The position numbers were made by a program, and so were the translations under genes. Below are positions 25,287 to 38,415 of a stretch of 54,250 nt of DNA, piece by piece (within the stretch, counting starts at the first letter, position 1; the number at the start of each line of letters is the position of its first letter). This DNA is from a virus: positions 1 to 54,250 of the IMG/VR virus record IMGVR_UViG_3300027589_000005; one strand, given 5' to 3'. The notes under the pieces are model-generated. The model was not told the origin of the DNA and did no database searches. It worked only from the letters and a program-made list of their open reading frames with translations.

Positions 25287-25466
25287 ATGTTCATGCGTAT
25301 GGCCGTGCTCAGGCTCTCCAAGCGGGGCTTCGCAGCCCTGCTTGCCAGGCACCTGCCCAAGGGTGCCCGGGTGTCCCACTTGTGGGACACGGGTCGGCTA
25401 TCGATGTGGAGGCTAGAAATGGCCTCTGCTCAGGTAGCCGTTGTCGAGGTCTGCCTCGACACCTGA
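25287..25466 (+). CDS. Small basic protein, unknown
   Basis: 59 aa starting MFMRMAVLRLSKRGF after GAGGTGACGC. Its length just misses common ORF cut-offs. Basic, amphipathic N-terminal half, then WRLEMASAQVAVVEVCLDT. It has a leader of the same general kind as its neighbours and a 3'-UTR pseudoknot (25473-25507) and terminator, which supports it being expressed. Confidence 0.65.
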   Translation: MFMRMAVLRLSKRGFAALLARHLPKGARVSHLWDTGRLSMWRLEMASAQVAVVEVCLDT

Positions 25467-25472
25467 GCGTTA

Positions 25473-25507
25473 TCTCCCCCACCTACGGGAGAAGTAAAGA
25501 TAGTAGG
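25473..25507 (+). other. 3'-UTR H-type pseudoknot
   Basis: Stem 1 TCTCCC (25473-25478) / GGGAGA (25487-25492). Loop CCTAC (25482-25486) pairs with GTAGG (25503-25507) across a 10-nt A-rich linker. It sits between the stop codon and the terminator. Confidence 0.65.
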
Positions 25508-25517
25508 GATGGATCTG

Positions 25518-25540
25518 GGGGCTTCGGCCCCTTTTTCTTT
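25518..25540 (+). terminator. Intrinsic terminator
   Basis: GGGGC TTCG GCCCC followed by TTTTTCTTTT. Confidence 0.9.
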
Positions 25541-25591
25541 TATGGCATCTAATGCATACATTCCGTATGTCACAGATGCTAAGGAGCTCGA

Positions 25592-25780
25592 ATGAGCAGC
25601 AAGGTGGTTGATAGCGCTGGCCGAGAAATCGGCCAGCGTGAGGTTTTCCACTTCGTCGGCCGAAAGGCCGGCGAAGTGGTGGCGGAGCGGGTTGTCACGA
25701 CTAATCGCGGCTGGGCTTTGGCCCGCCGCGACTTCAAGGCACAGCACAACCTCAAGGACGAGGAGGTGGAAACCCTCTGA
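25592..25780 (+). CDS. Small basic protein, unknown
   Basis: 62 aa after AAGGAGCTCGA. It starts MSSKVVDSAGREIGQREVFH and is positively charged, with a central VVAERVVTTNRGWALARRDF. Its leader holds GCATCT/AGATGC closing a CATAC/GTATG hairpin, a shorter form of the class I leader. Followed by the terminator CTACC GAAA GGTAG (about 25788-25825). Confidence 0.65.
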   Translation: MSSKVVDSAGREIGQREVFHFVGRKAGEVVAERVVTTNRGWALARRDFKAQHNLKDEEVETL

Positions 25781-25787
25781 ACTCTTA

Positions 25788-25825
25788 GGCCCTGCTACCG
25801 AAAGGTAGTGGGGCCTTTCTTTTTC
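25788..25825 (+). terminator. Intrinsic terminator
   Basis: GGCCC..CTACC / GGTAG..GGGCC with GAAA loop, then TTTCTTTTT. Confidence 0.85.
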
Positions 25826-25841
25826 TTCTATGGAGGTGAGC

Positions 25842-25985
25842 ATGGCTGATGAACAGCTAAAGCTCCCTCAGTTCAAGGAGCCGTTGGGGATTAAAGCCCC
25901 GGCTCCTGTGGAGTCTGGGTGGAAACCCCCGGCTCCACCAAAGCGGAAGAAGGCCAAGCAGGAGCCTCTCTTCCGCAAGGACTGA
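25842..25985 (+). CDS. Small proline/lysine-rich protein
   Basis: 47 aa (MADEQLKLPQFKEPLG...), start ATG after GGAGGTGAGC. Disordered composition with KPPAPPKRKKAKQ, which resembles a nucleic-acid-binding tail. It has the standard spacing and terminator of this region. No family recognised. Confidence 0.65.
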   Translation: MADEQLKLPQFKEPLGIKAPAPVESGWKPPAPPKRKKAKQEPLFRKD

Positions 25986-25990
25986 GGGCA

Positions 25991-26047
25991 CAAGGTGTTG
26001 CCCTGGTTTGACAGATGGTCTGTTGGACTAGGGCACACCCCTTTTTT
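25991..26047 (+). terminator. Long-stem terminator
   Basis: GGTGTTGCCCT pairs with AGGGCACACC (one bulge) around an inner CAGA/TCTG hairpin, followed by CCTTTTTT. Confidence 0.7.
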
Positions 26048-26102
26048 AATTCTCCATTTCATGTGTGCTTATGTGGATGAGGCCCCAACCATTGGAGGTT
26101 CA

Positions 26103-26564
26103 GTGGGCAAAGAGAACCGAAAGGCCAACAAGGCCGAAAAGCGGCTTGCTAAGGCCGCCAGGGTGAAAGTCCCTGAGACCACCACGGTCGAGTTGGAGAC
26201 CCGCATCCAGCTCGACCGCCACCTGGAGGCTGATCGCCCAGGTGGCGACAAGGGAGCGGGGGAACTTACCCACCTCGAGTACCGGCTTGTTGGACGGCTC
26301 GGAGTGGCGGTCGACCGGGCCTCGGCTTTGGCCGAGGCATTGTATAGAGAGATCGTAAAGAACGCGCCGAGCCGGCTTGTGGGGCGTAAGCAGGGCGGAA
26401 CTGCCCGCCTCACCCTCAGCTGCCCCGGTTGCGGGGCAGCTGTCCTCTGGTTCGCCGGAGGAAAGGTGATCTTCCGCACCTGGTTTCCGGCCGGGTGCGA
26501 AGAGGAGACTCTCCCGCTTCCGTGGGAGGTGGACCTTGGTTCTGTACTGAAGAACTTCATTTAG
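26103..26564 (+). CDS. Protein with half zinc-ribbon, unknown
   Basis: 153 aa. The GTG at 26103 directly follows GGAGGTTCA and is chosen over an upstream in-frame ATG whose mRNA would hide that site. Lys/Ala/Arg-rich helical N-terminus, central helical part (YRLVGRLGVAVDRASALAEAL), then a C-terminal segment with CPGCGAAVLW and a lone later Cys (FPAGCEEE). This may be a degenerate zinc site. No family recognised. Confidence 0.65.
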   Translation: MGKENRKANKAEKRLAKAARVKVPETTTVELETRIQLDRHLEADRPGGDKGAGELTHLEYRLVGRLGVAVDRASALAEALYREIVKNAPSRLVGRKQGGTARLTLSCPGCGAAVLWFAGGKVIFRTWFPAGCEEETLPLPWEVDLGSVLKNFI

Positions 26565-26568
26565 TACA

Positions 26569-26590
26569 GGGGGGCTTGCCCCCTTTTATT
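26569..26590 (+). terminator. Intrinsic terminator
   Basis: GGGGGGC TT GCCCCC followed by TTTTATTTC. Confidence 0.8.
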
Positions 26591-26624
26591 TCTATGGGCA
26601 ATTAGGCCCGTAAGAGGAAGCGTC

Positions 26625-26849
26625 ATGTTGATTGATGATCTGCTTGCCACCATCAAGCCGTCCTCCCAGGTCTCCGAAGAAGAAATCGAGCAGGATTGGT
26701 TCCTTGCGTTATTGAAGGTGGAAGTTTCGCTCAAGAAACACAAGCGACTTGTGGCTAAACCAAAGTTCGGCCTCCCCCCTCTGACTATGAGGGAGGAGCA
26801 GGACCTGCTCCTCCCTGGAGCGGTGTACAAACGTCGTTCGCTTTTCTAG
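26625..26849 (+). CDS. Small protein, unknown
   Basis: 74 aa, ATG after AAGAGGAAGCGTC. Acidic helical N-terminus (SQVSEEEIEQDWFLALLKVE), basic C-terminus. Its 3' UTR has a clear pseudoknot (26857-26885) and the terminator CTCGGC TTCG GCCGAG. Function unknown. Confidence 0.7.
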   Translation: MLIDDLLATIKPSSQVSEEEIEQDWFLALLKVEVSLKKHKRLVAKPKFGLPPLTMREEQDLLLPGAVYKRRSLF

Positions 26850-26856
26850 AGTCCAC

Positions 26857-26885
26857 CGTCTAACCTAAAGACGCTAAACAAAGGT
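26857..26885 (+). other. 3'-UTR H-type pseudoknot
   Basis: Stem 1 CGTCT / AGACG (26857-26861 / 26869-26873). Loop ACCT (26863-26866) pairs with AGGT (26882-26885) across CTAAACAA. The closest relative is at 30212-30240, where stem 1 is CGCCT / AGGCG, a compensatory T-A to C-G change. Confidence 0.75.
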
Positions 26886-26886
26886 A

Positions 26887-26920
26887 GGGACTCGGCTTCG
26901 GCCGAGCCCTTTTTCTTTCT
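26887..26920 (+). terminator. Intrinsic terminator
   Basis: CTCGGC TTCG GCCGAG inside a GGG/CCC stem, then TTTTTCTTTC. Confidence 0.9.
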
Positions 26921-26940
26921 TACGGGCCCATAGATACTAA

Positions 26941-27044
26941 ATGACTCTATGGTATTACCCATGTTCCCCCAACACGAGTTAGCTAGCTTGACTAGACTGA
27001 CTAATGAAAGTACATCCGTGTGCTGGGGGACCCGGCCCTTTTTA
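26941..27044 (+). ncRNA. Candidate small RNA
   Basis: About 100 nt with no ORF between two terminators. TTCCCCCAACACG near its start pairs with CGTGTGCTGGGGGA near its end (two extra bases bulged), then CCCTTTTTATTTC. The enclosed 45 nt are AT-rich. It could be a small RNA or a decayed gene. Confidence 0.45.
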
Positions 27045-27177
27045 TTTCTCTATTCTATGGAGCTAATCTTAGCTGTATGACTCAAAAGTCTGGGGTGTGA
27101 CAATGGCGTCACATGTCCAGTGAGAGCAACAGCGCCCATGCGGAAAATGGGTAGAAGACAGCTCTATGGAGGACATC
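27045..27177 (+). promoter_or_regulatory. Structured 5' leader, class I, divergent copy
   Basis: Begins CTATGGAGC and has CTCAAAAG, hairpin TGTGAC/GTCACA and GGAGGACATC. The outer pairing is less clear than in the other copies. Confidence 0.45.
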
Positions 27178-27789
27178 ATGTCCAACAACACCAACAACCC
27201 CGTCGTCGCCCCCATCCCCGCCGCGCTGGCCCTCATCGCCGCCGCCAACCAGCGGCAGGCCGCGGCCAAGCGCCAGGAGGCCGAGAGCGCGCTGGCGAAG
27301 GTGACGGCCCTTTGGGGCCGGATGACCGTCAGCGAGATTCAAGAGGCCCTGAAGGTCAACCTGCGCATCATGAACAAGGAGGAGGGCGACGCGCTCAAAG
27401 CGATGGCCGATGAGGCCATCGCGACGCTTCAGATGGCTGATCAGGCCCTCAAGGAGCACCGCGACGCCATCCGGCTCTCCACGCCGGAGGGCGTGGAGGA
27501 CACGATGGCCAGCATCATCTCGCAGCAGACCCTGGACAAGGGGGCGGCCGAGATCGCCAAGATCAACAAAGCCCGGGAGGCCGCCAATGCGGCCAAGAAG
27601 GCCAAGATCAACAAGGTGATCGCCGACTACGGCGACGCCCTGACCGACAACCAGCGTCGTGCGATGACCGCGTTCCTGAGCAGTCCGGATTGCAAGTGGA
27701 CCTACCAGCCCACCAAAGAGGGGCGAGAGGCCCTGCTGCGCGCCGTCGCTCGGGCCGCCCGAGCTGTTCGGGAGCAGAGCAAGAAGTAG
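27178..27789 (+). CDS. Ala/Lys-rich helical protein, unknown
   Basis: 203 aa, ATG 27178 after GGAGGACATC. Helical, with coiled-coil-like charge pattern (ANQRQAAAKRQEAESALAK; NKAREAANAAKKAKINKVI) and no cysteine cluster apart from one. GC-rich, with strong G/C at third positions. Probably an oligomeric or nucleic-acid-associated protein; no family recognised. Confidence 0.75.
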   Translation: MSNNTNNPVVAPIPAALALIAAANQRQAAAKRQEAESALAKVTALWGRMTVSEIQEALKVNLRIMNKEEGDALKAMADEAIATLQMADQALKEHRDAIRLSTPEGVEDTMASIISQQTLDKGAAEIAKINKAREAANAAKKAKINKVIADYGDALTDNQRRAMTAFLSSPDCKWTYQPTKEGREALLRAVARAARAVREQSKK

Positions 27790-27829
27790 CCCCCTCGGGC
27801 TACTGGAAACCCAGTCCTGGTGACTGGTA

Positions 27830-27861
27830 GGACACACGCATTAGCGTGTGTCCTTTTTATT
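27830..27861 (+). terminator. Intrinsic terminator
   Basis: Perfect stem GGACACACGC / GCGTGTGTCC, ATTA loop, TTTTTATTTC. Confidence 0.95.
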
Positions 27862-27889
27862 TCTTCCTTTCTTATTCTTTATTCTTCTT

Positions 27890-28104
27890 TTCTATGGGCA
27901 CTTAACCCAACGTACTCTAAAGCCTGGTATCTTCGGATACCCGCTCAGAGACGTGCAAGCCACCAAGGAGGAAACTCTTGCGGTGGCAGGTATGGAGCAC
28001 ACGAAAGTGTCCTTGGTTGCCAGTGGGCGATTGAGAAAGGCTCCATAGTATCTCACTACACCTCGCAAGGGTCCTGTGAGATGGTTCTCTACTTAACGAG
28101 AACA
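27890..28104 (+). other. Gene-poor stretch with leader-like hairpin
   Basis: Begins CTATGGGC like other leaders in this region, with the perfect hairpin GGTATC TTCG GATACC and AAGGAGG (about 27964). Only very short frames follow (an 18-codon TTG frame), so it is either a tiny peptide gene or an untranslated RNA. Nothing more can be supported. Confidence 0.35.
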
Positions 28105-28168
28105 GTGGCCCTTAGTGTGAAGGAAAGATGGGTGGCGCCACCCATTGAGTACCGATCCTAAGGGCCAC
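28105..28168. promoter_or_regulatory. 64-bp dyad-symmetric element (best copy)
   Basis: Exactly centred inverted repeat: GTGGCCCTTAG at 28105-28115 and CTAAGGGCCAC at 28158-28168, equally far from a perfect 18-bp palindrome ATGGGTGGCGCCACCCAT at 28128-28145. It is the clearest member of a family found in at least ten intergenic gaps from 24.1 to 42.8 kb. Interpreted as a DNA-level protein-binding or promoter element. Confidence 0.8.
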
Positions 28169-28440
28169 ACCACCCCACCCTAGCTACAGGAGAGTAGCCA
28201 TGTTCACGGAACAGATGTCTGTATGTGTTACTGGTCAAACCACACACGGACACTAAACTCCCGACAGACCAAGTGGATAACTGAGGTTATCCCGTCAAGG
28301 TACTTAGAAGCCTTGACACCAAACTCCTACACCAATCTCTGGGAGTATAATTAAGAGGTTGGCGCCTGCCAGAGCGTGTTATGGCCCCGGGGGAGCGATT
28401 CCCCAACTATTCGGGTAGAAATACCCGCTGGGAGGTTCTC
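28169..28440 (+). promoter_or_regulatory. Long structured leader
   Basis: No credible gene. It contains an 18-codon frame after AGGAG (28201), hairpin GTCAAGG/CCTTGAC (about 28295-28320) and, just before the next ribosome site, CGGGTA GAAA TACCCG. Likely a regulated 5' UTR of the following gene. Confidence 0.45.
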
Positions 28441-28800
28441 ATGAACCACATCCAGATGTCCTTTATTGCGGCGGAGTTCCCCGTCGCCCTGGAGGCCGCC
28501 GTTGAGGCGGCGGCCTCCCTCCCAGCCCCGAACCCGATGGAGGCGGCTTGGGTCGCGGCCTCCATCTCGCCTCTTGCCGAGGGTCGCGTCATTCGCGCCC
28601 CTCGGCGCCCCGTGGCCCGCACCGCGCGAGCGGTGCGGAAGTTCATCGCCCCCCGTATGGCCGCTGCCGCCGTCCTTGTGGCGGCGGTGTCTTTGCTGGG
28701 CCTAACGGCCCTGGTCCCTGCCACCTTCGCCGGCGTCCTGGGCCTCACCGCCCTGACGATCGGCACGCCCTCCTGGGTTGCCCTGGCCACTACCAAGTAG
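28441..28800 (+). CDS. Small membrane protein, unknown
   Basis: 119 aa, ATG 28441 after GGGAGGTTCTC; an upstream in-frame ATG at 28381 lies within the leader hairpins. Ala/Pro-rich N-terminal half, basic linker (RRPVARTARAVRKF), then a C-terminal hydrophobic hairpin (residues about 74-112: AAAAVLVAAVSLLGLTALV and FAGVLGLTALTIG). Two membrane helices predicted by eye. Followed by a pseudoknot and terminator. Confidence 0.7.
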   Translation: MNHIQMSFIAAEFPVALEAAVEAAASLPAPNPMEAAWVAASISPLAEGRVIRAPRRPVARTARAVRKFIAPRMAAAAVLVAAVSLLGLTALVPATFAGVLGLTALTIGTPSWVALATTK

Positions 28801-28805
28801 TGGCC

Positions 28806-28835
28806 CCCGGTTAGCGTTCCGGGCGTCAAAAACGC
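28806..28835 (+). other. 3'-UTR H-type pseudoknot
   Basis: Stem 1 CCCGG / CCGGG (28806-28810 / 28819-28823). Loop GCGTT (28814-28818) pairs with AACGC (28831-28835) across CGTCAAA. Confidence 0.65.
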
Positions 28836-28844
28836 ATGGTCATA

Positions 28845-28880
28845 GGTCGCCCCCTTAGGAGGGGCGACCTTTTTCTTTCT
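28845..28880 (+). terminator. Intrinsic terminator
   Basis: GGTCGCCCC / GGGGCGACC then TTTTTCTTTC. Confidence 0.95.
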
Positions 28881-28974
28881 ATGGTACTCATATCTATTGA
28901 AGCCAAAAGGAGGCAGTCATACAATTTAGTATGATGGGCTTATGAGGTATTAGGTATTGTACCTTGGAGGACAC
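28881..28974 (+). promoter_or_regulatory. Structured 5' leader, class I, copy 3
   Basis: CTATGG, GCCAAAAGGAGG, hairpin GTCATAC/GTATGAT, GGGCTTATGAGG, ending GGAGGACAC. The outer stem is weaker (ATATCT/AGGTAT). Confidence 0.6.
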
Positions 28975-29241
28975 ATGTTCACCGTCACCATTAGCGCGCC
29001 CGTCGCGCTCGCGCTCGCCGTGGCCCTCGCCGCCCACCTGGGCGGCATCCTGGCCGCCATCGCGATCCTCGGCTTCGTCGCGATGCAGTACCGCGCCAAG
29101 CGGGCCGAGGCCCAGATCGACCCCTACGAGGGGTACGAACCCAGCCAAGAGGAGCTCGAGGTGATGACCGAGCTCAACTGCCCGTGGGGCTGTGGAGAGT
29201 GCTATTACTGCAAACTAGGGAGGGAGCCCGACCAGGGCTGA
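28975..29241 (+). CDS. Membrane-anchored zinc-knuckle protein
   Basis: 88 aa, ATG 28975 after GGAGGACAC. Residues 4-38 are one long or two short membrane helices (VALALAVALAAHLGGILAA), then a polar stretch and a C-terminal CPWGCGECYYC cluster. The gene at 29930 has a related CGNDCGECRIC cluster and the same leader type, so the two are probably related. Function unknown. Confidence 0.7.
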   Translation: MFTVTISAPVALALAVALAAHLGGILAAIAILGFVAMQYRAKRAEAQIDPYEGYEPSQEELEVMTELNCPWGCGECYYCKLGREPDQG

Positions 29242-29253
29242 TCCTCTCCTCCT

Positions 29254-29287
29254 GCGCCTAGCTAGGGCGCGTGGTAAATACTAGCTA
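29254..29287 (+). other. 3'-UTR H-type pseudoknot
   Basis: Stem 1 GCGCC / GGCGC (29254-29258 / 29266-29270). Loop TAGCTAG (29259-29265) is complementary to CTAGCTA (29281-29287) across a 10-nt linker. Confidence 0.65.
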
Positions 29288-29315
29288 GGGGCCCTCAATG
29301 GGCCCCTTTTGTTTC
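29288..29315 (+). terminator. Intrinsic terminator
   Basis: GGGGCCC / GGGCCCC, loop TCAAT, TTTTGTTTC. Confidence 0.85.
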
Positions 29316-29382
29316 TATGGGTTTCGTATCACAATCCAGTGGTATGATAAGTTTCAACTCTTCAATGTCCTTAGGAGGGACT

Positions 29383-29508
29383 ATGAAGAATCACCTCGAG
29401 ACGGCCGCCGCCGTCTTCGGGATGGGCGTGGTTATGCACGCCGTCCTGAAGACGGTGGTTCCCTTCTCTGGCTGGTTCTGGACCGCTCTGGTCCAGTTCA
29501 ACAGCTAG
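29383..29508 (+). CDS. 41-aa membrane peptide, paralog B1
   Basis: ATG after GGAGGGACT. Short hydrophobic protein (LETAAAVFGMGVVMHAVLK...GWFWTALVQFNS). The next gene has the same length and shares LETAAAV, SGWFW and VQ.NS, so the pair arose by duplication. One membrane helix. Function unknown; small hydrophobic phage peptides often act on host membranes, but nothing here proves it. Confidence 0.65.
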   Translation: MKNHLETAAAVFGMGVVMHAVLKTVVPFSGWFWTALVQFNS

Positions 29509-29554
29509 GGAAGGGCCCAGTTTCCTGTCCGGGTTAACAAAACAAGAAAGAACT

Positions 29555-29586
29555 GGCTCGTGCTTCGGCGCGGGCCTTTTCTTTTC
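29555..29586 (+). terminator. Intrinsic terminator
   Basis: GGCTCGTGC TTCG GCGCGGGCC then TTTTCTTTTC. Confidence 0.85.
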
Positions 29587-29645
29587 TACGGGCATGTAGA
29601 ATCACCTACATTGTCTAACTCAACCTCTTATTCGTGGAGAATACC

Positions 29646-29771
29646 ATGACTAAGCTTGAGACGGCGGCTGCCGTCGCCTTCACCGCCGTGTTTTTGCACG
29701 GGGGCCTGAAGGCGACGTTCCTCCCCTACTCGGGTTGGTTCTGGGCCATTGTGGTCCAAGCCAACTCGTAG
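29646..29771 (+). CDS. 41-aa membrane peptide, paralog B2
   Basis: Start ATG after GGAGAATACC. MTKLETAAAVAFTAVFLHGG with SGWFWAIVVQANS at the end, matching paralog B1 in length and ends. The 3' UTRs of both also share GGGTTAACAAAA. Confidence 0.65.
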   Translation: MTKLETAAAVAFTAVFLHGGLKATFLPYSGWFWAIVVQANS

Positions 29772-29777
29772 TAGAGG

Positions 29778-29807
29778 CCCAGTTAGGCTTCTGGGTTAAC
29801 AAAAAGC
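29778..29807 (+). other. 3'-UTR H-type pseudoknot
   Basis: Stem 1 CCCAG / CTGGG (29778-29782 / 29791-29795). Loop GCTT pairs with AAGC (29804-29807) across TTAACAAA. The upstream paralog has a weaker equivalent at 29516-29549. Confidence 0.5.
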
Positions 29808-29808
29808 T

Positions 29809-29835
29809 GGGGCCTTCGGGCCCCCTTTTTATTCT
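29809..29835 (+). terminator. Intrinsic terminator
   Basis: GGGGCC TTCG GGCCCC, C, TTTTTATTC. Confidence 0.95.
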
Positions 29836-29929
29836 ATGGGCATTAGCTCTCTAGAAATCAAAAGGACACAACTGTGCATGTTCGCATAGTGGGTGTATGA
29901 GATATGAGAGATATTCCCTTGGGGGACAC
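29836..29929 (+). promoter_or_regulatory. Structured 5' leader, class I, copy 4
   Basis: CTATGGGC, ATCAAAAGGAC, hairpin ACTGTGC/GCATAGT, GGGTGTATGAG, ending GGGGGACAC. CTCTC/GAGAG may form the outer stem. Confidence 0.6.
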
Positions 29930-30205
29930 ATGTCCAGCAACAGCAAGATTGTCATCATCGACAACCGCCTCGCCTGGAAGGGGTGCGGCAACGACTGCGG
30001 CGAGTGCCGCATCTGTCTGATGGAAGACGAAAGTATCAACGTTCTCTTCCAAGAAATATGGGAGATCAAGATCCAGCTCCGGAAGGAGCGCCGGCGCAAA
30101 GCCGAGGAGGTGGAGAAAGTTCGGGTCTGGGTCCTTGGGGCCCTGAGCCCCCAAGACTTTATTCATTACGAAGACGCCGAGGACTTCGACGACGTCCCGT
30201 TCTAG
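29930..30205 (+). CDS. Small zinc-knuckle protein with SSB-like acidic tail
   Basis: 91 aa, ATG 29930 after GGGGGACAC. An N-terminal cysteine cluster CGNDCGECRIC (residues about 19-29), a basic helix (IQLRKERRRKAEEVEKVR) and an acidic C-terminus ending DFDDVPF. The last residues resemble the DDIPF tail by which single-strand-binding proteins recruit partners, although no OB fold is visible. It may compete for SSB partners (inference). Confidence 0.65.
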   Translation: MSSNSKIVIIDNRLAWKGCGNDCGECRICLMEDESINVLFQEIWEIKIQLRKERRRKAEEVEKVRVWVLGALSPQDFIHYEDAEDFDDVPF

Positions 30206-30211
30206 TCTTCG

Positions 30212-30240
30212 CGCCTAACCTTAAGGCGTAAAACAAAGGT
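30212..30240 (+). other. 3'-UTR H-type pseudoknot
   Basis: Stem 1 CGCCT / AGGCG (30212-30216 / 30224-30228). Loop ACCTT (30218-30222) pairs with AAGGT (30236-30240). Covaries with 26857-26885. Confidence 0.75.
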
Positions 30241-30408
30241 AGGGACCCGGATAGCCGGGCCCTTTTTCTTTCTATTCTTCACGTCAAGTAAGCGTTTGAC
30301 TTGCAACGTGTATGACTTGAGCCCTTTTTATTTCTATGGGCCCATAGATAGAGAAGCATAATAGTGTGCTTTGATATTCAGAGGCTCAATTGCTTTCAGA
30401 GGAGTATT

Positions 30409-31110
30409 ATGAAAGCACACAAGCCCACCGAACAGGTGGTGGTTTACGGACAACCTATGTCCGTCAAACGGGTATCCAAGCCCGTTATGGCCGAGGCATT
30501 GAATGATGCCGCTAAGGCCATTGAGCGCCAGCGGGCGCAACTTGCTCGTAAGGAGCAAGAGCTCGCCGAGCGCGAGAAGCAGTTGGTTGAAGCCACTGCA
30601 CAGGCCCTTGTGGCCAAAAACGAAGCCACCCAGCTCGCCCATGAGGTGACTGATTTGCGTGGCGGTCGCGATCGCTCAAACGAATTCGCGGCATTCCAAG
30701 GTCATCTTGCTGCCTATAAGAAGACCAACGAAGACCACCCCACTGTTGGGGAAATGGTCGATTTGGTCATCCAGTGGAAGCGGATGATCGAGCGGTTTGC
30801 TATCGTGGATTACGACTTCGTGGCCAAGCCATTGAAGTTCCGCGGACAACTGCTCAATATCACCTTCGCTCAAGGTGAAGGAACTAAGAAGCTCAGTTAT
30901 GCTGGGTCTTCTAACCAGCCGGAACGCTGGGCGTTCTATCTCGGGTTGCTGGTGATGAACCGCACCCGGTGGAGCACTCTTCGAGTGCTGGTCGAGCCGC
31001 AGAATGGGAGAAAGTTCGTCTCCCATGTCGCGTGCACGTTAAGGTCCGGATCTGAGCCTGTGGTCGTCACGCAGGCTCCCCGCGACTTTGTTCTAGCTCT
31101 TCGGAGCTAG
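30409..31110 (+). CDS. Coiled-coil protein upstream of the polymerase
   Basis: 233 aa, ATG 30409 after AGAGGAGTATT. Residues 25-85 form a strong coiled coil (AIERQRAQLARKEQELAEREKQ). The C-terminal half is globular alpha/beta (WAFYLGLLVMNRTRWSTLRVLV). It immediately precedes the 1430-aa polymerase-like gene but is separated by a terminator. A nucleic-acid or accessory role is possible; no family recognised. Confidence 0.7.
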   Translation: MKAHKPTEQVVVYGQPMSVKRVSKPVMAEALNDAAKAIERQRAQLARKEQELAEREKQLVEATAQALVAKNEATQLAHEVTDLRGGRDRSNEFAAFQGHLAAYKKTNEDHPTVGEMVDLVIQWKRMIERFAIVDYDFVAKPLKFRGQLLNITFAQGEGTKKLSYAGSSNQPERWAFYLGLLVMNRTRWSTLRVLVEPQNGRKFVSHVACTLRSGSEPVVVTQAPRDFVLALRS

Positions 31111-31116
31111 ATAACT

Positions 31117-31147
31117 GGGGGCGAGTTTTCTCGCCCCCTTTTATTTC
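31117..31147 (+). terminator. Intrinsic terminator
   Basis: Perfect stem GGGGGCGAG / CTCGCCCCC with TTTT loop, then TTTTATTTC. Confidence 0.95.
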
Positions 31148-31258
31148 TTTTCTCTTTTATGGCAAGACCGGGCCCCCTTCGGGGGGTGTGTTCTTTGTCA
31201 CGAGGAAATCCGCAATCCCGCGGGAAGTACTCACAACCTCTGTTCCATAAGGAGTTAT

Positions 31259-34200
31259 ATGGAACCAGAAGTTGCGACCGAGATGGTCGCTTCGGTGCCG
31301 AGTGCACCGCCTCGAGCGGCTTTGCCCGCTATTTTGCGGCTTGATACCAAGGCCGCCGCCTTCGTCAAGGCGAAGCTGCAGAAGGAGATCTGCAAAGCCC
31401 GTCCCGAGCTCAAGCGCGTGGACTGGGAAGAGTTCTCCCTGGAGCACATTCTGGACGGTCTCATTCCTGGGGTGAACCGGGAAAAGTTCCTTCCTTGGAA
31501 GGACGTCGTCCTTAAGACGCTTATCGCGTCATACCAAGCGTCTCTGCAGCACAAGCAGAGCGCATTTGTTCAGCAGGCTAACAACGCCTCGCTGTACGTG
31601 CCGGCTGTAGTGATTCGTTGCAAGACGAAGACCTCCAGCAAGCGTGAGCAGAAGAAGAACGGCTCCGGCTGGATCTCCGAGCTTATGCTGCGCCGGCTCA
31701 TTTCCAAGCTCCTCGGCAAGCGTGCCGAGCGTGGAACGGAATGGATCACGTCCATCGTCAACGCAGCGAGCGATAAGCACCTCATTGGTGTTGAGGCAGA
31801 ACGCGGTCTTCAGGCTCCTGGCCTGTTGCACGCCGTTGCCCGGTTCGAAGGCGAGTACAATGCGGCTTCCCCGCCCGTCGCGTCCTTCGAGAACCAAGCT
31901 CTGACTCCTTCTGGCTTCGTCAAGAAGTCCCAGGATGTCATCTTGGCTGGTGGCTACATCCCGGTTGAAGGCCGTAAAGGCTTTGAGCTCGCCGGGATTA
32001 ATGGCAAGCCCTCGTGGTATTTTGATGGTCTCGTGCGTACCTTCGGGGATGCCGTGGCCTTCATGAGCTACGTGCTGAGCTTGACCAGCCCCATTTTGCC
32101 CAACGGCTTCGTTCCTAACCTGGACATTACGTTCAAGGAAAAGGTTCTCGAATTGCCGGACGGCGTTTCCCTGCCTGCGGGTGTTGATGGCTCTGGTACC
32201 TACCATCCTCACACACCTGAGCTCCAGGCATTTCTAGCGTCCAACATGGCGCTCATCGGTGGTGGCCGCAAGACCTATCCCGTTATCCAGATTCGGGTTT
32301 GGAACCCCGGATGCACGGAGACGGAGGGTCTATTTGCTAAGGGCCTGCTCGTTCCCGACATGAAATCCTTCGATGATCAGGGTAACCCTGGCATCGTTCT
32401 GGGCTTGAACCAGATTAAGGGTGTCATGAAGGAAAACGTGGAGGTCAAGCAAGCGCTGGCCACTAATGGCAGTGTGGTCCTCAAGGGCCACATGGGCTGC
32501 ATGAAGGTGTGGCGAGAGCAGAGCACGCTGAAAAGCTGCTTTGAGCTCCTGCAGCTCGTGGAGTCCACGCCTGAGACCGAAGCCGCCGTCGAGGCGCTCG
32601 TCGTGGCTACCTTCGACTCCATGCGGAAGAAGGGTCCACGCGCACTCGTCAACGTCTCGTCTGGTGGCAACACCACGCTCGAGCGTTTGATTGAGCTTGT
32701 GCTCAAGGCTGAGGAGATGGGTGTTCTTATCCCTGATCCGAAGACCGCCGAGCTCCGACCTGTCCAGATGATGGACATCAAGGCCGTTAGGACCATGGCA
32801 ATGGATAAGCTCCGTCGCCGCCTGTACAACGCAGCGAATGGTACTGGCTTTGAGGGGAACCAGGTCGTGATCATCATGGACGCGTCTGTCAAGCGCGGCC
32901 ATGTGGTGATTGGCAGTACCACTGTGGAGACACCCCCTGTGGGCGAACCCGTTGGTACTTGGCGATTCCCCGCCATTCTGGCTCAGAGCCTCAAAACTCT
33001 GATTGTCCAGGAGCCTTCCGAGCACATGCTCATCGTGGATGCCAACGGCGAAAGCTGCTTGGTTCCTTACTCAGCGTTCATGAACCCTGCGGACGTGACA
33101 GACCTGCAGGGCGACGACGATGGCGACATCGCGGCGTGGACGACCAACCCCGACGTCTTGACGCTCGCTTCGAATCTTGTGGATACCCGCAAGTATCGGA
33201 TTGAGCCGGATGGCGAGAAGGTTAAGATCACCAGTGAAAACTTGGGTGATTATGCTGAGTACCTGTCCACGGATCCCATGGGTCCTGTGGGTCAGGCGAC
33301 TGTGGCTCAGGCTCGGTTCTATGAGCTCGCAGCCATCAGCCGTTCCCTCTACGCAGCTTACCGCAAGATGGCTGCAGCAAACGCGAAGGCGAGCAAGGGT
33401 GCGAAAGCATCTGAGAACGACAAGCGTATGCCTGAGGGCTCGGAGGCCTGGGGTCTCGAACAGTGGGAAGTTTATTGCCGCGAGGCGATTGACTCCCTGT
33501 CCGAAGAGCATCTGGCTGCCTTCGATGTGGGCTGGTTGGCCTACCGGGCAAAGGCCTATAACTGGGCCCGCGCCTTTGGCGTCTTCATCCAGGAGTGCAT
33601 CGATCGCGCCAAGCGGTTCGTGCGCTGGACTGATATCCCGAAGCTCGCTAGCATGGGCGACGAGGGTTGGGCCACCATTGGTGACAGCCAAGAGCTGTAT
33701 TGCCATTGGTCCTGGGACGCTGAAGGGCGTCGTTATCCCTGGAAGCATCCGGGGCTGGCTGGTTCGCGCACCAGTCACTACCTCCCGTTGTCGGAGAGCC
33801 AGCTGCGTACCAAGCAGCCGCTTGAGCTCCTTGAGGAGTTCACCAAAGCTGCGAAGAAGTCGCTTGGTTACGACCAGGTGAACGACGCAGTTCGTTGGCG
33901 CCGTAACGTGACTGTTAAGGGCGAGATGCTTCAGAAGCGGATCGACCCTGACAACTTCCACCCGCAGAGCAAACGCCCGGGGTTGGTTGAGGTAGCGTTT
34001 AGCGCAACTCAGAAGGCGTGGGAGCTGTTGAAGGGCCACTTCAACATCCCCAACGAGGGAGCCGATTTGTCGGACCTCGTGGAGCGTATGCTTGACCGGC
34101 AGGAAGAAGCTGGCAAGGCTCCCGCTCGCCTGACCATCGGCAACAACAAGGTGTCGTGGGCGGATTTCATCCGTGCCATGAAACTGCAGGCCCGTGAGGA

Positions 34201-35551
34201 CAAATACGCGCAGCAATTCGCGTACTCCCGTGTCATGTGGTCTACGCCTGAAGGTGAGCCTGATGCGAAGGCTTGGCAATGGGTCTCGCAAGAGAACCTG
34301 CGCCTCATCAAGGAAGGGAAGGGTGGCCTCCTCCTTCCGAAAGTGGCCGATTGGCTGCCTCAAGCGTATCTTGATTACCGTATCAGGAACGCTATGGTCC
34401 TGGGTTTCAACAAGAACGACCAACGTGTCGACTTGGCCCTTGGTCATAACGAGAGCGAGGATGATAACCCGGGCAACAACCCGCGCATCCAAGCAATCGA
34501 GGAGGCCTACCGGCTGTTCAACCGCTGCATGACGGATAGTGCAGTGGACCAGGGCGACAGCGCCGTTCTGTGGCTTCTTAGGCGTTATGCCTTTGAGTCT
34601 GCGAACGTGGATCTGCTCGTGCGCAAGGATCCCGAAAGGGATGCGAAGGGTGGCGTCGCGTCATACAAGCTGGATCTCCAGCGTGGCGTGAAGGATCCCC
34701 TCGCGGCTACCAAGAAGTTCCCGGTCGCTAAGACCGAGCGTGCTCTTGATATCCTCTTGTACGAGGGCAGCCCGGTTGCTGAACACTTCCAACTGGGAGT
34801 GGCAGAGCGGTGCGTGTTTGAAGAGCTGCCGAAGTTGCGCAAGGCGGCTCGTGTTATCTGTGAGGCTGCCGACGCCCGGCAGATGGAGGGCTACACTGTA
34901 GAGCAGAAGCGAGTAGAAATGCTTGCCGAAGCTATCTTCAGTCAAAGCTACCTCTCCATTGACATGGCGGATTACCCCCACATGTCTCCTCAACAGGTCA
35001 ATCACCTGTCGGAAATTCACGTCTACTCTGGCAAGGGTCCGCTCCACCAGTGTGAAAGCTGTATGGCGGCCCTGAAGAAGGAGATCGTGAATGAGAACCG
35101 GTATGGGAAGCTGGGCGGTCGAAAGATCGCAGATCGTCTGACGGAGCTTGCGGGCAAAATCCAAGAGCACCTCAAGTCGGACGTCCAGTTTGCCTTCGAA
35201 ACGCATGTGGAACATCTCCGTATCGAGATGCTGAAGCACGCGGTTCGTGGCGATCCCGGACTGGTCACCGATCTGGTGATGGCACTCAAGGACCAAGCGT
35301 CGTTCCGTCTCAAGGTCTGGGACGTGGTTGCCGACGAGTTGGCTGGGTTGCCTAACACACAAGCCGAGACTGGGGATCATGTGGTCTCCAACCGGGCCCG
35401 AGTTGCTTTCAAGAATAGCGCAGCAATGAGCTATCTGAGCATCTATGGGTTCCAAGGTCTCGAGCGGTACTTCGATCGGGAGATTCCCTCCATCGATCCT
35501 CGTAGTGACGAGGAAGTACTCGCTTGTGTTAGCGGCGAACAGGAAATCTAA
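31259..35551 (+). CDS. Putative single-chain DPBB RNA polymerase (DxDGD motif)
   Basis: 1430 aa, ATG after AAGGAGTTAT. The key signature is DLQGDDDGDIAAW with D619, D621 and D623, matching the metal-binding DbDGD loop of the YonO/crAss-phage/eukaryotic RdRp branch of two-barrel polymerases. About 60 residues earlier, VGTWRFPAILAQSLKTL fits the R-x-P segment that precedes that loop, and a region with QIKGV (K387) and VVLKGHMGCMKVW (K409) may be the first barrel with its conserved lysine. The rest is helical. Its leader has the UUCG hairpin cassette. It may transcribe phage genes. Other DGD-containing nucleic-acid enzymes remain possible. Confidence 0.6.
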   Translation: MEPEVATEMVASVPSAPPRAALPAILRLDTKAAAFVKAKLQKEICKARPELKRVDWEEFSLEHILDGLIPGVNREKFLPWKDVVLKTLIASYQASLQHKQSAFVQQANNASLYVPAVVIRCKTKTSSKREQKKNGSGWISELMLRRLISKLLGKRAERGTEWITSIVNAASDKHLIGVEAERGLQAPGLLHAVARFEGEYNAASPPVASFENQALTPSGFVKKSQDVILAGGYIPVEGRKGFELAGINGKPSWYFDGLVRTFGDAVAFMSYVLSLTSPILPNGFVPNLDITFKEKVLELPDGVSLPAGVDGSGTYHPHTPELQAFLASNMALIGGGRKTYPVIQIRVWNPGCTETEGLFAKGLLVPDMKSFDDQGNPGIVLGLNQIKGVMKENVEVKQALATNGSVVLKGHMGCMKVWREQSTLKSCFELLQLVESTPETEAAVEALVVATFDSMRKKGPRALVNVSSGGNTTLERLIELVLKAEEMGVLIPDPKTAELRPVQMMDIKAVRTMAMDKLRRRLYNAANGTGFEGNQVVIIMDASVKRGHVVIGSTTVETPPVGEPVGTWRFPAILAQSLKTLIVQEPSEHMLIVDANGESCLVPYSAFMNPADVTDLQGDDDGDIAAWTTNPDVLTLASNLVDTRKYRIEPDGEKVKITSENLGDYAEYLSTDPMGPVGQATVAQARFYELAAISRSLYAAYRKMAAANAKASKGAKASENDKRMPEGSEAWGLEQWEVYCREAIDSLSEEHLAAFDVGWLAYRAKAYNWARAFGVFIQECIDRAKRFVRWTDIPKLASMGDEGWATIGDSQELYCHWSWDAEGRRYPWKHPGLAGSRTSHYLPLSESQLRTKQPLELLEEFTKAAKKSLGYDQVNDAVRWRRNVTVKGEMLQKRIDPDNFHPQSKRPGLVEVAFSATQKAWELLKGHFNIPNEGADLSDLVERMLDRQEEAGKAPARLTIGNNKVSWADFIRAMKLQAREDKYAQQFAYSRVMWSTPEGEPDAKAWQWVSQENLRLIKEGKGGLLLPKVADWLPQAYLDYRIRNAMVLGFNKNDQRVDLALGHNESEDDNPGNNPRIQAIEEAYRLFNRCMTDSAVDQGDSAVLWLLRRYAFESANVDLLVRKDPERDAKGGVASYKLDLQRGVKDPLAATKKFPVAKTERALDILLYEGSPVAEHFQLGVAERCVFEELPKLRKAARVICEAADARQMEGYTVEQKRVEMLAEAIFSQSYLSIDMADYPHMSPQQVNHLSEIHVYSGKGPLHQCESCMAALKKEIVNENRYGKLGGRKIADRLTELAGKIQEHLKSDVQFAFETHVEHLRIEMLKHAVRGDPGLVTDLVMALKDQASFRLKVWDVVADELAGLPNTQAETGDHVVSNRARVAFKNSAAMSYLSIYGFQGLERYFDREIPSIDPRSDEEVLACVSGEQEI

Positions 35552-35561
35552 GTAGCCGCAT

Positions 35562-35603
35562 GGCAGGCCCCCGGGAAACCGGGGTGTCCTGCCTTTTTCT
35601 TTA
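35562..35603 (+). terminator. Intrinsic terminator
   Basis: GGCAGG..CCCCGG / CCGGGG..CCTGCC with GAAA loop, then TTTTTCTTT. Confidence 0.9.
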
Positions 35604-35689
35604 CTCCGCAGGGACTCCGCCCAGAGTGACCGGAACGCAACTCACATGACTCCGCTTGTCATGTTGTGGTTTGAGGTTCTTGGTTCTAA

Positions 35690-35748
35690 GTGCCGTTAGA
35701 AGGGGAAATGTGGTGGCGCCAACCCTCAATACACTCCGCTAAGGGCAA
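35690..35748. promoter_or_regulatory. Dyad-symmetric element
   Basis: GTGCCGTTAG (35690-35699), centre GGTGGCGCCAACC around 35717, and CTAAGGGCAA (35739-35748). Followed by the UUCG hairpin CCCTTCGGGG and GATTCGTTGG leading to the next gene. Confidence 0.7.
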
Positions 35749-35808
35749 GCGTTCCCTTCGGGGTTAGATTCGTTGGTTGGTTGTTATCCAGGCAACCCGT
35801 GGAGGCTC

Positions 35809-35991
35809 ATGAAGCCAATCCAGCATCCCGTCGAGTGCGTGCGGTTCAGCCCGCGCGTGCTCGACAAGGTTGCGGCCGAGGCTGCGCAGAAGCGCTACCC
35901 TCGGCCCAACACCCGTCTCCACCCGGCTTTCGCTAGCCGGGTGGAGCCCTTCCCTAACCCCCTTCGGGGGGTCGATTCGACGGAGGACTAA
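35809..35991 (+). CDS. Small basic protein, unknown
   Basis: 60 aa, ATG 35809 after GGAGGCTC. MKPIQHPVECVRFSPRVLDK, basic, Pro/Arg-rich in the second half. First gene after the polymerase and the first to carry the dyad-plus-hairpin type of promoter region. No family recognised. Confidence 0.6.
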   Translation: MKPIQHPVECVRFSPRVLDKVAAEAAQKRYPRPNTRLHPAFASRVEPFPNPLRGVDSTED

Positions 35992-36310
35992 AGTTCCTTG
36001 GCTGGTCACGCAGCCATATGTGGAGGGTGTGCAAGTACGCACGACCCGTTCCATGACGTGAACAAGGGCTCGCTGCAGTCGTTCTGCAGTGGGAGCGAGG
36101 CTCTCAAGGTTAGTGGTTCAGTCCACGTAAAAACCGAGAGGCATGTTGGGGGGACGCCCCTGCCATGTACAAACCTGGTTGCTCTTCCCCGATAGCGCTG
36201 TCCTGTGTGCGACTACAAGGTTGCACGCAGGGCTGATTGGGCTTGGTATGCTCGCCCAGTAGGGGTTAACCAGACTCTCATGCCTTCGGGTGTGGGGGTC
36301 TTTGTTTCTT
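35992..36310 (+). ncRNA. Candidate structured ncRNA
   Basis: No ORF with a ribosome site. Many strong local helices: CTGCAG/CTGCAG with TCGTT loop, CCTGTGTGC/GCACGCAGG (about 36203-36233) and GGGG/CCCC near 36150. It ends in a 13-bp terminator AGACTCTCATGCC TTCG GGTGTGGGGGTCT with TTGTTTCTT (36272-36310). It may be an independent RNA or a long 3' UTR of the preceding gene. Confidence 0.5.
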
Positions 36311-36317
36311 CATAAAT

Positions 36318-36375
36318 ATTGCCCTTAAGGAAGTATGGTGGCGCGACCCTCTTTACTCCAATCCTTATGGGCAAT
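36318..36375. promoter_or_regulatory. Dyad-symmetric element with AATA box
   Basis: CATAAATA precedes ATTGCCCTTAAGGA (36318-36331); centre GGTGGCGCGACC; mirror half TCCTTATGGGCAAT (36362-36375). Confidence 0.75.
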
Positions 36376-36409
36376 ACTAATGTTGTACGCTCCGCGGTTG
36401 GGTTCAATG

Positions 36410-36486
36410 GGACTGGCTCTTGCCGACGCTCTGAAGGGTTCAGAGTTTGTTGGGCGGAACTTGAAGCTGGTCCCACGGAGTTCATC
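36410..36486 (+). promoter_or_regulatory. GGGCGGA structured leader, copy 1
   Basis: Outer stem GGACTGGCT (36410-36418) / AGCTGGTCC (36465-36473). Hairpin CTCTGAA/TTCAGAG (36429-36445). Conserved single strands CTTGCCGAC and GTTGGGCGGAACTTG flank the hairpin. Confidence 0.75.
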
Positions 36487-36906
36487 ATGGAGCGTTCTTT
36501 TCTCAAAGGCTTGATCAACGCCTCTTCCCCTTCTGAGGTCCAGGAGCTCGTGAAGCTCCTGCCGCCGCCTTCGGGCGGCCCCCACGGGTGGATGAGGGAG
36601 TGGGCGCGCTGCGCCCGCGCCCTCCGGGACAAGGACCTCCAGGCCGCCGTCGCGGCGGCGAAGGAGGAAAAAGCGGCAGCCTCGGCGGCCGCTTTGGCCG
36701 CCAGGCAGGCGGAACCCGTTTGGGGTGTCGTCCCCGAATACGGGGCATACTCGTTTTCCAACGAGTTGTACGGCTTCAAGGCCGTTGAGGGCAAAGGTTC
36801 TCTCACTTACGAGGAGGCCGTTGTCGAAGCCGAGAAAAAGCGTTTCGCGAACTCCCGCCGCATCAAAGCGGCCGCAGAGTACTGGGACGCCTATCTCAAC
36901 GGCTGA
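36487..36906 (+). CDS. Small helical protein, unknown
   Basis: 139 aa; ATG after CGGAGTTCATC. Helical, Ala/Lys/Glu-rich centre (LQAAVAAAKEEKAAASAAAL), aromatic C-terminal half (YGAYSFSNELYGFKAVEG). It is one of three successive genes behind the same structured leader (with 37363 and 37891), so they are probably co-regulated, though their proteins are not alike. Confidence 0.7.
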   Translation: MERSFLKGLINASSPSEVQELVKLLPPPSGGPHGWMREWARCARALRDKDLQAAVAAAKEEKAAASAAALAARQAEPVWGVVPEYGAYSFSNELYGFKAVEGKGSLTYEEAVVEAEKKRFANSRRIKAAAEYWDAYLNG

Positions 36907-36910
36907 TCCC

Positions 36911-36944
36911 AAGGCCCCCACCTTCGGGTGGGGGCCTTCCCTTC
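36911..36944 (+). terminator. Intrinsic terminator (weak U tract)
   Basis: AAGGCCCCCACC TTCG GGTGGGGGCCTT, then CCCTTCCC. Confidence 0.7.
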
Positions 36945-36959
36945 CCTATACATATTGCT

Positions 36960-36990
36960 ATGCCCGTAGGGGAGGAATGGTGGCGCGACC
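36960..36990. promoter_or_regulatory. Dyad half-element
   Basis: ATGCCCGTAGGGG then ATGGTGGCGCGACC; no clear right arm. Confidence 0.6.
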
Positions 36991-37012
36991 CTTTCGAGTG
37001 TTGTTCTGCAAT

Positions 37013-37195
37013 GTCCCCCTTCGGGGGTTAGTTCTATGGAGGGGTCCCAGGTGACTACCTCCATGAGCCCTCGTCACTGCAGCAGTGATGGAAGGTCCCA
37101 CCAAACAAGCCAAGACCCTTCCCTTTGATGTCGCCGTCACGGCATCAAGGGGGAGGAAGGAAGAGCTCAGCCTGACGGGGCTGGGCTCTTCGTTT
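37013..37195 (+). ncRNA. Candidate structured ncRNA
   Basis: Starts with cassette hairpin CCCCCTTCGGGGG and GTTCTATGGAGG. The ATGGAGG is itself paired with CCTCCAT 15 nt downstream, so it would not serve ribosomes. Then TCACTG/CAGTGA and CTTTGATG/CATCAAGG hairpins, and terminator GAGCTCAGCC / GGCTGGGCTC (37163-37188). No gene with a ribosome site. Confidence 0.6.
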
Positions 37196-37222
37196 GCTAA
37201 TAAATATCCAACTCAACACAAA

Positions 37223-37254
37223 GTTGGCGCCACCGTGTTCCTTCCTAAAGGCAC
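37223..37254. promoter_or_regulatory. Dyad half-element, inverted orientation
   Basis: GTTGGCGCCACC...CCTAAAGGCAC, the reverse complement of the usual half; TAATAAATA lies about 20 nt upstream. Confidence 0.6.
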
Positions 37255-37281
37255 ATTATCTTCCGCTTCGCGGTTAGATTC

Positions 37282-37362
37282 ATTGAGAGGTAAATCCTTG
37301 CCGACACTCGTATGGTACGAGTAGTTGGGCGGAACCTGTGATTATCCTCTCTTGGAGTTCGA
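37282..37362 (+). promoter_or_regulatory. GGGCGGA structured leader, copy 2
   Basis: Outer stem GAGAGG (37285-37290) / CCTCTC (37346-37351) extended by AATC/GATT. Hairpin ACTCGT/ACGAGT (37306-37322). Conserved CTTGCCGAC and GTTGGGCGGAACCTG. Stems differ in sequence from copy 1 but keep pairing. Confidence 0.8.
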
Positions 37363-37776
37363 ATGGACCGTTTCCAGATGGCTGCCGATGAGCTCTCCCT
37401 CCTCAACCGTATTAAGGCTTTGGAGGAAGAGCTCCGTCATCTCAAAGGACAACAAATCCACGAAGGGCTCTTCGGAGCCCCCATGAAGTGGATTGAGGTC
37501 CACTCCAATCAAATGGGAGGGTATTTCCTGGTGAAGGAGAGATTCCCTCTCTACCAGACCCCGAAGGTCGTGGCGCGCGCGAGTGGTATGGATGTCGCGG
37601 TGATTCATCACCGGGAGCCAGATAGGGTGGAACAAATCCACCTGACTGCTCTAAAGGCACGGAAGGCTTATGAAGCCTTCCGTGGCGAGGGAGCCCAGCC
37701 CCTCCATGTGGCGTGGGGCGTTGCCGCCCATGCCCCGTGGACTCCCGAGCTTGAGACCATGCTTCGAGCCATCTGA
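37363..37776 (+). CDS. Small protein, unknown
   Basis: 137 aa; ATG 37363 after TTGGAGTTCGA. Short N-terminal coiled coil (LLNRIKALEEELRHLKGQQ), then alpha/beta. Second of the three genes with the GGGCGGA leader. No family recognised. Confidence 0.7.
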   Translation: MDRFQMAADELSLLNRIKALEEELRHLKGQQIHEGLFGAPMKWIEVHSNQMGGYFLVKERFPLYQTPKVVARASGMDVAVIHHREPDRVEQIHLTALKARKAYEAFRGEGAQPLHVAWGVAAHAPWTPELETMLRAI

Positions 37777-37814
37777 CCATCTGACCACTCGACCCCTCCG
37801 GGGGTCATTTCTTT

Positions 37815-37890
37815 GAGGCAAACCCTTGCTGGCTGTCTGAAGGGTTCAGATTAGCTGGGCGGACTTGCGGTTTGTCCTTTGGAGTTTGTC
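37815..37890 (+). promoter_or_regulatory. GGGCGGA structured leader, copy 3
   Basis: Outer stem CAAACC (37819-37824) / GGTTTG (37869-37874). Hairpin TCTGAA/TTCAGA (37836-37850). CTTGCTGGCT and AGCTGGGCGGACTTG keep pairing through changed bases (CCGAC/GTTGG becomes CTGGCT/AGCTGG). Confidence 0.8.
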
Positions 37891-38151
37891 GTGAGCAAGG
37901 CCAGCGTTGTCCCTGTGATTTTCTTCGACAGCTGGGGCTGGGCGTACGCCACTTGTGAGGGGTCTCACCCCGACGCGTCGGCCTTTGGGCCGACGGGCAT
38001 CGCTCGTCGAATGACCACCGAGGAGTTGTACGACATGGGGCTCTGGTCCGACATCCCGGACCTCCAGCAGTCCCCCTACAACTTCGCCTTCGAGGCAGAC
38101 CGCCTCGAGGAAAAAGAAGAGGAGGGCGACTGGTCCATCCTCAAATCTTAA
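37891..38151 (+). CDS. Small acidic protein, unknown
   Basis: 86 aa from GTG 37891, which follows GGAGTTTGTC; an in-frame TTG upstream overlaps that site. Starts MSKASVVPVIFFDSWGWAYA and ends in an acidic helix (RLEEKEEEGDWSIL). Third gene with the GGGCGGA leader. It has a 3'-UTR pseudoknot. Confidence 0.7.
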   Translation: MSKASVVPVIFFDSWGWAYATCEGSHPDASAFGPTGIARRMTTEELYDMGLWSDIPDLQQSPYNFAFEADRLEEKEEEGDWSILKS

Positions 38152-38159
38152 CCAACAAC

Positions 38160-38185
38160 CGGCTACTCGGAGCCGCAATCCGAGT
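38160..38185 (+). other. 3'-UTR H-type pseudoknot
   Basis: Stem 1 CGGCT / AGCCG (38160-38164 / 38171-38175). Loop ACTCGG (38165-38170) is fully complementary to CCGAGT (38180-38185) across CAAT. Followed by GCGGA/TCCGC and a terminator-like CAACC/GGTTG helix. Confidence 0.7.
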
Positions 38186-38266
38186 CCCAAGCGGAGGACC
38201 TTGTCCGCTATAGAAATGCCAGGAACCAGCAACCTCACTACGATAAGTGGTGGGGTTGTTTCTTTC

Positions 38267-38308: not shown

Positions 38309-38415
38309 TCGTTGCACATAACAAGGCCACGCCATTCTTCCTCCTTATCGGCACTTCTCTTGCCCTTTCAGGGACATGTTCCGCCCCTCGGGCTTAGGTG
38401 CTTTGGAGGTAAGCG

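Follow-up and report, generated by a model that had tools for sequence, protein, structure and literature searches.

In frameshift pseudoknots of the Luteovirus type, a loop of the AACAAA type crosses the minor groove of the first helix (P1), and the slippery site lies within coding sequence. Flavivirus exonuclease-resistant RNAs (xrRNAs) are exonuclease-halting pseudoknots of the 3′ untranslated region (3′ UTR) whose fold forms a ring that encircles the 5′ end, while repetitive extragenic palindromic (REP) elements are stabilizing 3′ structures of bacterial mRNAs. The usual picture of an intrinsic terminator is a hairpin followed by a U-tract. Here, we describe H-type pseudoknots that are repeatedly kept between the stop codon and the terminator of small genes in IMGVR_UViG_3300027589_000005, a virus record of 54,250 bp from IMG/VR (the whole stretch analyzed, further called the window).

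The phage pseudoknots resemble those of the Luteovirus type in stem lengths and loop, but they are located after stop codons and have no slippery site. With the flavivirus xrRNAs they share the 3′-UTR pseudoknot, whereas the ring fold is absent and an exonuclease halt is only proposed here. Like REP elements, and like terminators (PMC8406224), they lie at the 3′ end and appear generic and exchangeable, but those structures are hairpins, whereas the pseudoknot found here is additional to the terminator. The class I preQ1 riboswitch (Tte/Bsu) is likewise a compact H-type fold of about 31–35 nt with a P1 of 5 bp, a short first loop (L1) and an A-rich third loop (L3). The phage pseudoknots differ from it by their position in the 3′ UTR behind stop codons, with no switching partner seen. 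ToxI, CptI and phage pseudo-ToxI are also small noncoding H-type pseudoknots, one kind of them from phage (PMC3475682, PMC5086642). However, those RNAs either are repeats beside a toxin gene or mimic repeats of this sort, whereas scattered single copies at the ends of coding genes are found here. No Rfam family matched the pseudoknots at the gathering cut-off, the only match being to a transfer-messenger RNA (tmRNA) elsewhere in the window. A literature search of open papers, with subscription papers outside its scope, gave no description of such pseudoknots in phages.

The source is an uncharacterized large tailed bacterial virus, and the record is probably a fragment. Genes for the terminase (15926–18115) and the portal protein (10265–12040) are encoded on the minus strand, and very small plus-strand genes are clustered from about 24.4 kb onward, most of them with their own terminator behind them. 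Searches with megablast and blastn against 50,697 phage records (INPHARED) gave no DNA match to the window, and the conserved modules matched phage records only in short, insignificant pieces. The nearest terminase, of Moorella phage MTATph1, is 30% identical. Queries with the terminase and p525 found no members beyond the same phage group in IMG/VR, and no match in a genome contig collection. Within this group, G002 and G003 are near-identical relatives of the window, with too few changes for testing base pairs. G001, a contig of 147 kb, is a diverged relative that shares the gene order and the small-gene block of the window. Its terminase and portal protein are about 60% identical to those of the window, and the structural genes are about 64–78% identical in DNA.

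Covariation and recurrence of the pseudoknots

The pseudoknots sort into families A, B and C and a singleton D. Family A has three members in the window (28806, 29516, 29777) and three in G001 (24689, 27955, 24079), which share a register spanning 31 nt: P1 of 5 bp, L1 of UU[AGU], a second helix (P2) of 5 bp, no second loop (L2), L3 UUAACAAA (CGTCAAA in 28806) and the 3′ strand of P2 (P2′) of 5 nt. In the five gap-free sequences, 96% of the cells pair against 78% in shuffles, and six of the ten pairs show two-sided changes (two in P1, four in P2). Because the cells represent sequences, not events, and some of the copies closely resemble each other, independent changes are fewer than the cell counts. 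The covariation score is 0.60 versus 0.24 ± 0.07 after shuffling and is lost when the partners are slid. Loops pair with their own tails in 97% of the cases and with the tails of sister copies in 60%. Both helices of a classical H-type pseudoknot are thus backed by compensatory changes in family A, a conclusion that is strongly supported and independent of the enrichment p-values given below.

Family B (26857, 30211 and G001 27385) has a similar A-rich linker and covaries in P1 only (CGTCT/AGACG to CGCCT/AGGCG). Family C (29253) is identical in G001 and is therefore conserved, but it cannot covary. An earlier note on the window had proposed that shape is what is kept, among sequences unrelated except for two covarying copies. 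These two copies are 26857 and 30211 with their P1 change, and the proposal on shape is supported by pairs altered on both sides, which occur in P1 and P2 of family A and in P1 of family B. The remaining sequences are not all unrelated, as 28806, 29516 and 29777 form one family that becomes visible through G001; the copy at 29516–29546 was missing from the list of sites.

Under lax settings, 73 bare H-type pseudoknots were found in 6.8 kb of this GC-rich DNA, and a lax energy scan has no discriminating power. Since such pseudoknots are common everywhere, a single site means little, and tests of position and specificity were needed. We used a strict definition (P1 of 5–6 bp, P2 of at least 4 bp, L2 of 0–1 nt and L3 of 4–12 nt, with an energy cut and an A-rich L3) that was drawn up with the earlier list of sites in view. 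In the block from 24 to 36 kb, a strict pseudoknot starts 0–16 nt past the stop codon in 6 of 15 genes, with 0.19 expected from the strand density (p 5e-8) and 0.36 from the block density (p 2e-6). Eight of the 15 genes have no strict-count pseudoknot, with only a mismatched copy (29516) or none at all. The block of G001 has a strict pseudoknot in 6 of 12 genes, versus 0.08 (strand) and 0.26 (block) expected. The window and G001 are related phages, and the definition was made with the sites already in view, so that these p-values are guides and not exact; p stays at or below 2e-4 when the cut-offs for energy and A-content are moved or A-content is dropped. The right arm shows no enrichment (1 of 22 genes, the site at 38160, p 0.24). 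The recurrence claimed earlier for seven sites thus holds for the six sites of the block and not for 38160.

It had also been considered that shuffled 3′ UTRs might give equally good pseudoknots. Dinucleotide shuffles of single UTRs were rarely as good, with p between 0.002 and 0.016 for most members (D 0.002, C 0.002, A3 0.004, B2 0.002), which leaves the claim unrefuted; this test scores 26857 and its G001 homologue zero (L2 of 2 nt, or P2′ touching the terminator).

Pseudoknot sites and their terminators

The coordinates of all seven sites listed earlier were right, and at each of them an H-type pseudoknot with a P1 of 5–6 bp and a loop-tail helix P2 of 4–6 bp can form just 3′ of the stop codon. 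The general build consists of a short L1, an almost absent L2 (0–2 nt) and an L3 of 6–10 nt that is mostly A-rich. The pseudoknot starts 4–8 nt past the stop codon in most members, an intrinsic terminator lies downstream of every counted pseudoknot, and the pseudoknot-bearing genes use all three stop codons. In the intact members that were tested, the pseudoknot is favored by rough energies when compared with nested alternatives, with a knot penalty taken from the textbook range and not computed.

All window sites are on the plus strand. Pseudoknot D (25473–25507) starts 6 nt past the TGA of the gene at 25287–25466 and consists of TCTCCC/GGGAGA, loop CCACCTAC, CCTAC/GTAGG and L3 AGTAAAGATA, followed by a terminator hairpin at 25517–25532. 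It has no homologue in G001. Pseudoknot B1 (26857–26885), 7 nt past the TAG of the gene at 26625–26849, has the stems CGTCT/AGACG and ACCT/AGGT (or CCTA/TAGG) with L3 CTAAACAA; its terminator hairpin is at 26887–26909 and its homologue in G001 is at position 27385 on the minus strand. The second window member of family B, B2 (30211–30240), starts 5 nt past the TAG of the gene ending at 30205 and combines GCGCCT/AGGCGT with ACCTT/AAGGT and an A-rich L3, with a terminator hairpin at about 30242–30263 (ends approximate). Pseudoknot C (29253–29286) is formed by TGCGCC/GGGCGC and AGCTAG/CTAGCT with L3 GTGGTAAATA. It starts 11 nt past the TGA of the gene ending at 29241, and its terminator hairpin follows at 29287–29307.

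Pseudoknot A1 (28806–28835) lies 5 nt past the TAG of the gene ending at 28800 and is formed by CCCGG/CCGGG and GCGTT/AACGC with L3 CGTCAAA. It shows compensatory changes relative to G001 24689 and 27955, and the stem of its terminator (28844–28870) has compensatory differences between the G001 copies too. The eighth copy, A2 (29516–29546, terminator hairpin at 29555–29576), has one A.C mismatch in P1 and one C.A mismatch in P2; both pairs are perfect in the G001 orthologue (24079), and A2 may be a decaying copy. Pseudoknot A3 (29777–29808), 4 nt past the TAG ending at 29772, has the stems GCCCAG/CTGGGT and GGCTT/AAGCT with L3 UUAACAAA in the family A register, and is abutted by its terminator hairpin (29809–29824). 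The candidate E (38160–38184) has no counterpart in G001, and a nested hairpin competes with the pseudoknot. It is probably due to chance and was not counted as a member.

Two further structures were considered by eye in this region. The terminator of a 51-aa open reading frame (ORF) at 25986–26046 looks bistable, the alternatives being a GGGCA/TGCCC hairpin and a long-range hairpin ending in AGGGCACACC just before the T-run. Attenuation by a stem across pseudoknot B1 (GAGTCC/GGGACTC, 26850–26892) was rejected, as the remaining B copies do not preserve this stem.

Exchange between genes and possible functions

The units of pseudoknot and terminator, often together with the next leader, are 72–97% identical between the window and G001, while most ORFs between those units gave no alignment. 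A B unit closes the gene at 29930, whereas its relative in G001 (29% identical) ends in C; the gene that precedes C in the window has no more than short stretches in common with this G001 relative. In addition, A units like that at 28806 occur three times in G001, behind three genes. Given this B/C swap and the multiple A units behind different genes, the pseudoknot looks like a portable 3′ part that is swapped between genes, and this exchange, along with the short terminator hairpins, favors a generic role at the 3′ end over a gene-specific one. The segment 28192–28981 is 97% identical to G001 although the rest of the phages differs by a third, and it looks like a recently exchanged module; upstream of a small gene, it includes a noncoding stretch of about 240 nt (28200–28440) whose RNA appears to be structured.

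The pseudoknot structure is strongly supported; as to its function, we infer, tentatively, a generic and exchangeable mRNA 3′-end module that protects from decay, with or without insulation from the ribosome, a reading that we hold to be plausible rather than likely. Its action would most likely be mechanical. The fold would form as the transcript leaves RNA polymerase, with the A-rich L3 sitting in the groove of P1, and the pseudoknot and the short terminator hairpin would together make a stiff 3′ end. A 3′ exonuclease that has passed the short terminator would be halted before the reading frame, and the pseudoknot would keep the terminating ribosome, whose edge lies about 4–8 nt past the stop codon, off the terminator. 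The problem solved would then be that of a stable, cleanly terminated 3′ end. In bacteria, protective 3′ structures inhibit exonucleolytic attack (reviewed in PMC8406224). Terminator hairpins are weaker in genes with a pseudoknot (13 versus 12 genes, one-sided p 0.0018, in a post hoc comparison whose members are not independent), and genes without one have mostly long terminator hairpins about 10 nt or less from the stop codon. This is suggestive of two visible solutions, in which the stop codon is followed either immediately by a long hairpin or by a pseudoknot with a shorter hairpin behind it.

Several points weigh against decay protection. In addition to its post hoc nature and dependent members, the terminator comparison was not significant in its first version on the window alone (p 0.10), and family A combines the pseudoknot with a fairly strong terminator (−17 to −20 kcal/mol). 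Pseudoknots are absent from about half of the block genes, and intrinsic terminators by themselves already protect 3′ ends. The weaker terminators would also suit a termination helper without a role in decay, which would shield the short terminator from a ribosome at the stop codon as well as from mispairing with upstream RNA. The start of most pseudoknots 4–8 nt past the stop codon, about at the ribosome edge, and the long hairpins that genes without a pseudoknot have no more than about 10 nt past the stop codon also point this way. However, the terminators of family A are strong and a plain spacer would do equally, yet the fold is conserved, and we regard this explanation as rather unlikely. 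A bolder form of decay protection, an xrRNA-like element in DNA phages in which a decay-resistant 3′-UTR pseudoknot would yield a stable pseudoknot-plus-terminator RNA per tiny gene and the elements would be traded between cassettes, seems quite unlikely. If the element is protective or terminating, it would represent a 3′ part that is portable and has a defined register of 31 nt, and RNA decay or coupled translation would be a pressure on phage gene ends.

Together, the pseudoknot and terminator span about 60 nt, and this compact unit would also fit a small RNA (sRNA) derived from the 3′ UTR, resistant to decay (also from the 5′ side, against RNase J) and acting in trans. Structured 5′ ends are reported to be protective for 3′-UTR sRNAs of Gram-positive bacteria (PMC8406224), but no conserved single-stranded seed is present besides the A-rich linker, and such an sRNA appears improbable. 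We have similar doubts about a protein site or decoy, bound by a phage RNA-binding protein or by a host type III toxin, the target on which phage pseudo-ToxI RNAs act (PMC3475682). In family A, the loops (L1 UU, L3 UUAACAAA) vary less than the stems, and the size and A-rich L3 are like those of type III antitoxins (PMC5086642), but the copies are single, with no tandem arrays, and the loops differ among the four families. A search for ToxN in four records gave no match, with the control genomes equally silent. A ligand-sensing, preQ1-like attenuator governing read-through into the next gene is very unlikely. The L3 of 29516 has GUUAACAAAACAAG in common with the Tte preQ1 aptamer (PMC10639078), and a scan found sigma-70-like promoters between genes not in excess (4 versus 2.9 expected), as read-through would allow. 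Against this, an L2 of 0–2 nt leaves no obvious room for a ligand, and the pseudoknot and terminator do not overlap, so that no alternative pairing is kept among the copies; QueC was not found, with controls working, and the Rfam model remained unmatched at E up to 5 in the block and up to 10 in 29500–29850. Convergence on groove contacts more likely explains the A-rich strand shared with the preQ1 riboswitch. The geometry and the spacing of 4–8 nt are like those of frameshift pseudoknots, but a recoding signal (stop read-through or frameshifting) is highly improbable, as no slippery heptamer was seen by eye, all three stop codons are present, and the extended frames are of different lengths and reach into the terminator. 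Complementarity arising by chance in GC-rich DNA would agree with the pseudoknots that lax scans find everywhere and with the site at 38160; given the enrichment in two phages and the covariation, it is unlikely for families A–C and next to negligible as an explanation of the whole.

Other elements of the window

A structured 5′ leader of small genes was found at 24423–24474, 24858–24908, 28899–28950 and 29854–29905 in the window, and in G001 at L013 8807–8757 and 5167–5116 (both minus strand). Its build is GAAnCC-[A/G]AAAGG, P3, a P4 hairpin and ATGA-GG. Two-sided changes are seen in ten of its 14 pairs, and every cell is paired, making the leader a stronger structured RNA than the pseudoknots. 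A covariance model found no further convincing copy in the contigs searched, and Rfam gave no match at E up to 5. Two contigs found by the leader pattern (L031 and L032) were judged chance matches in coding DNA.

Directly after terminators, we found a box TTCTATGG (24401, 24837, 25826, 26590, 27053, 27890, 28877, 29313, 29832 and 30332). The window contains 12 copies, all on the plus strand, with 1.5 expected, and G001 has seven within one 20-kb piece (0.45 expected). The box is possibly a promoter element, with few sigma-70-like sites there. A tmRNA gene is present on the phage contig at 50298–50698 (Rfam RF00023, 82.7 bits) and was unreported by ARAGORN.

Upstream of right-arm genes, a recurrent noncoding element GCCCTTAG...TGGTGGCGCG was recognized by eye at 36320–36370, 36960–37000, 38275–38310, 39575–39605, 42370–42420 and 42710–42740. 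The element also occurs at 28105–28145 and in G001, and a rigid pattern failed to capture it. The region 35600–39500 contains few ORFs and, by eye, many hairpins over long stretches, which probably represent several noncoding RNAs.

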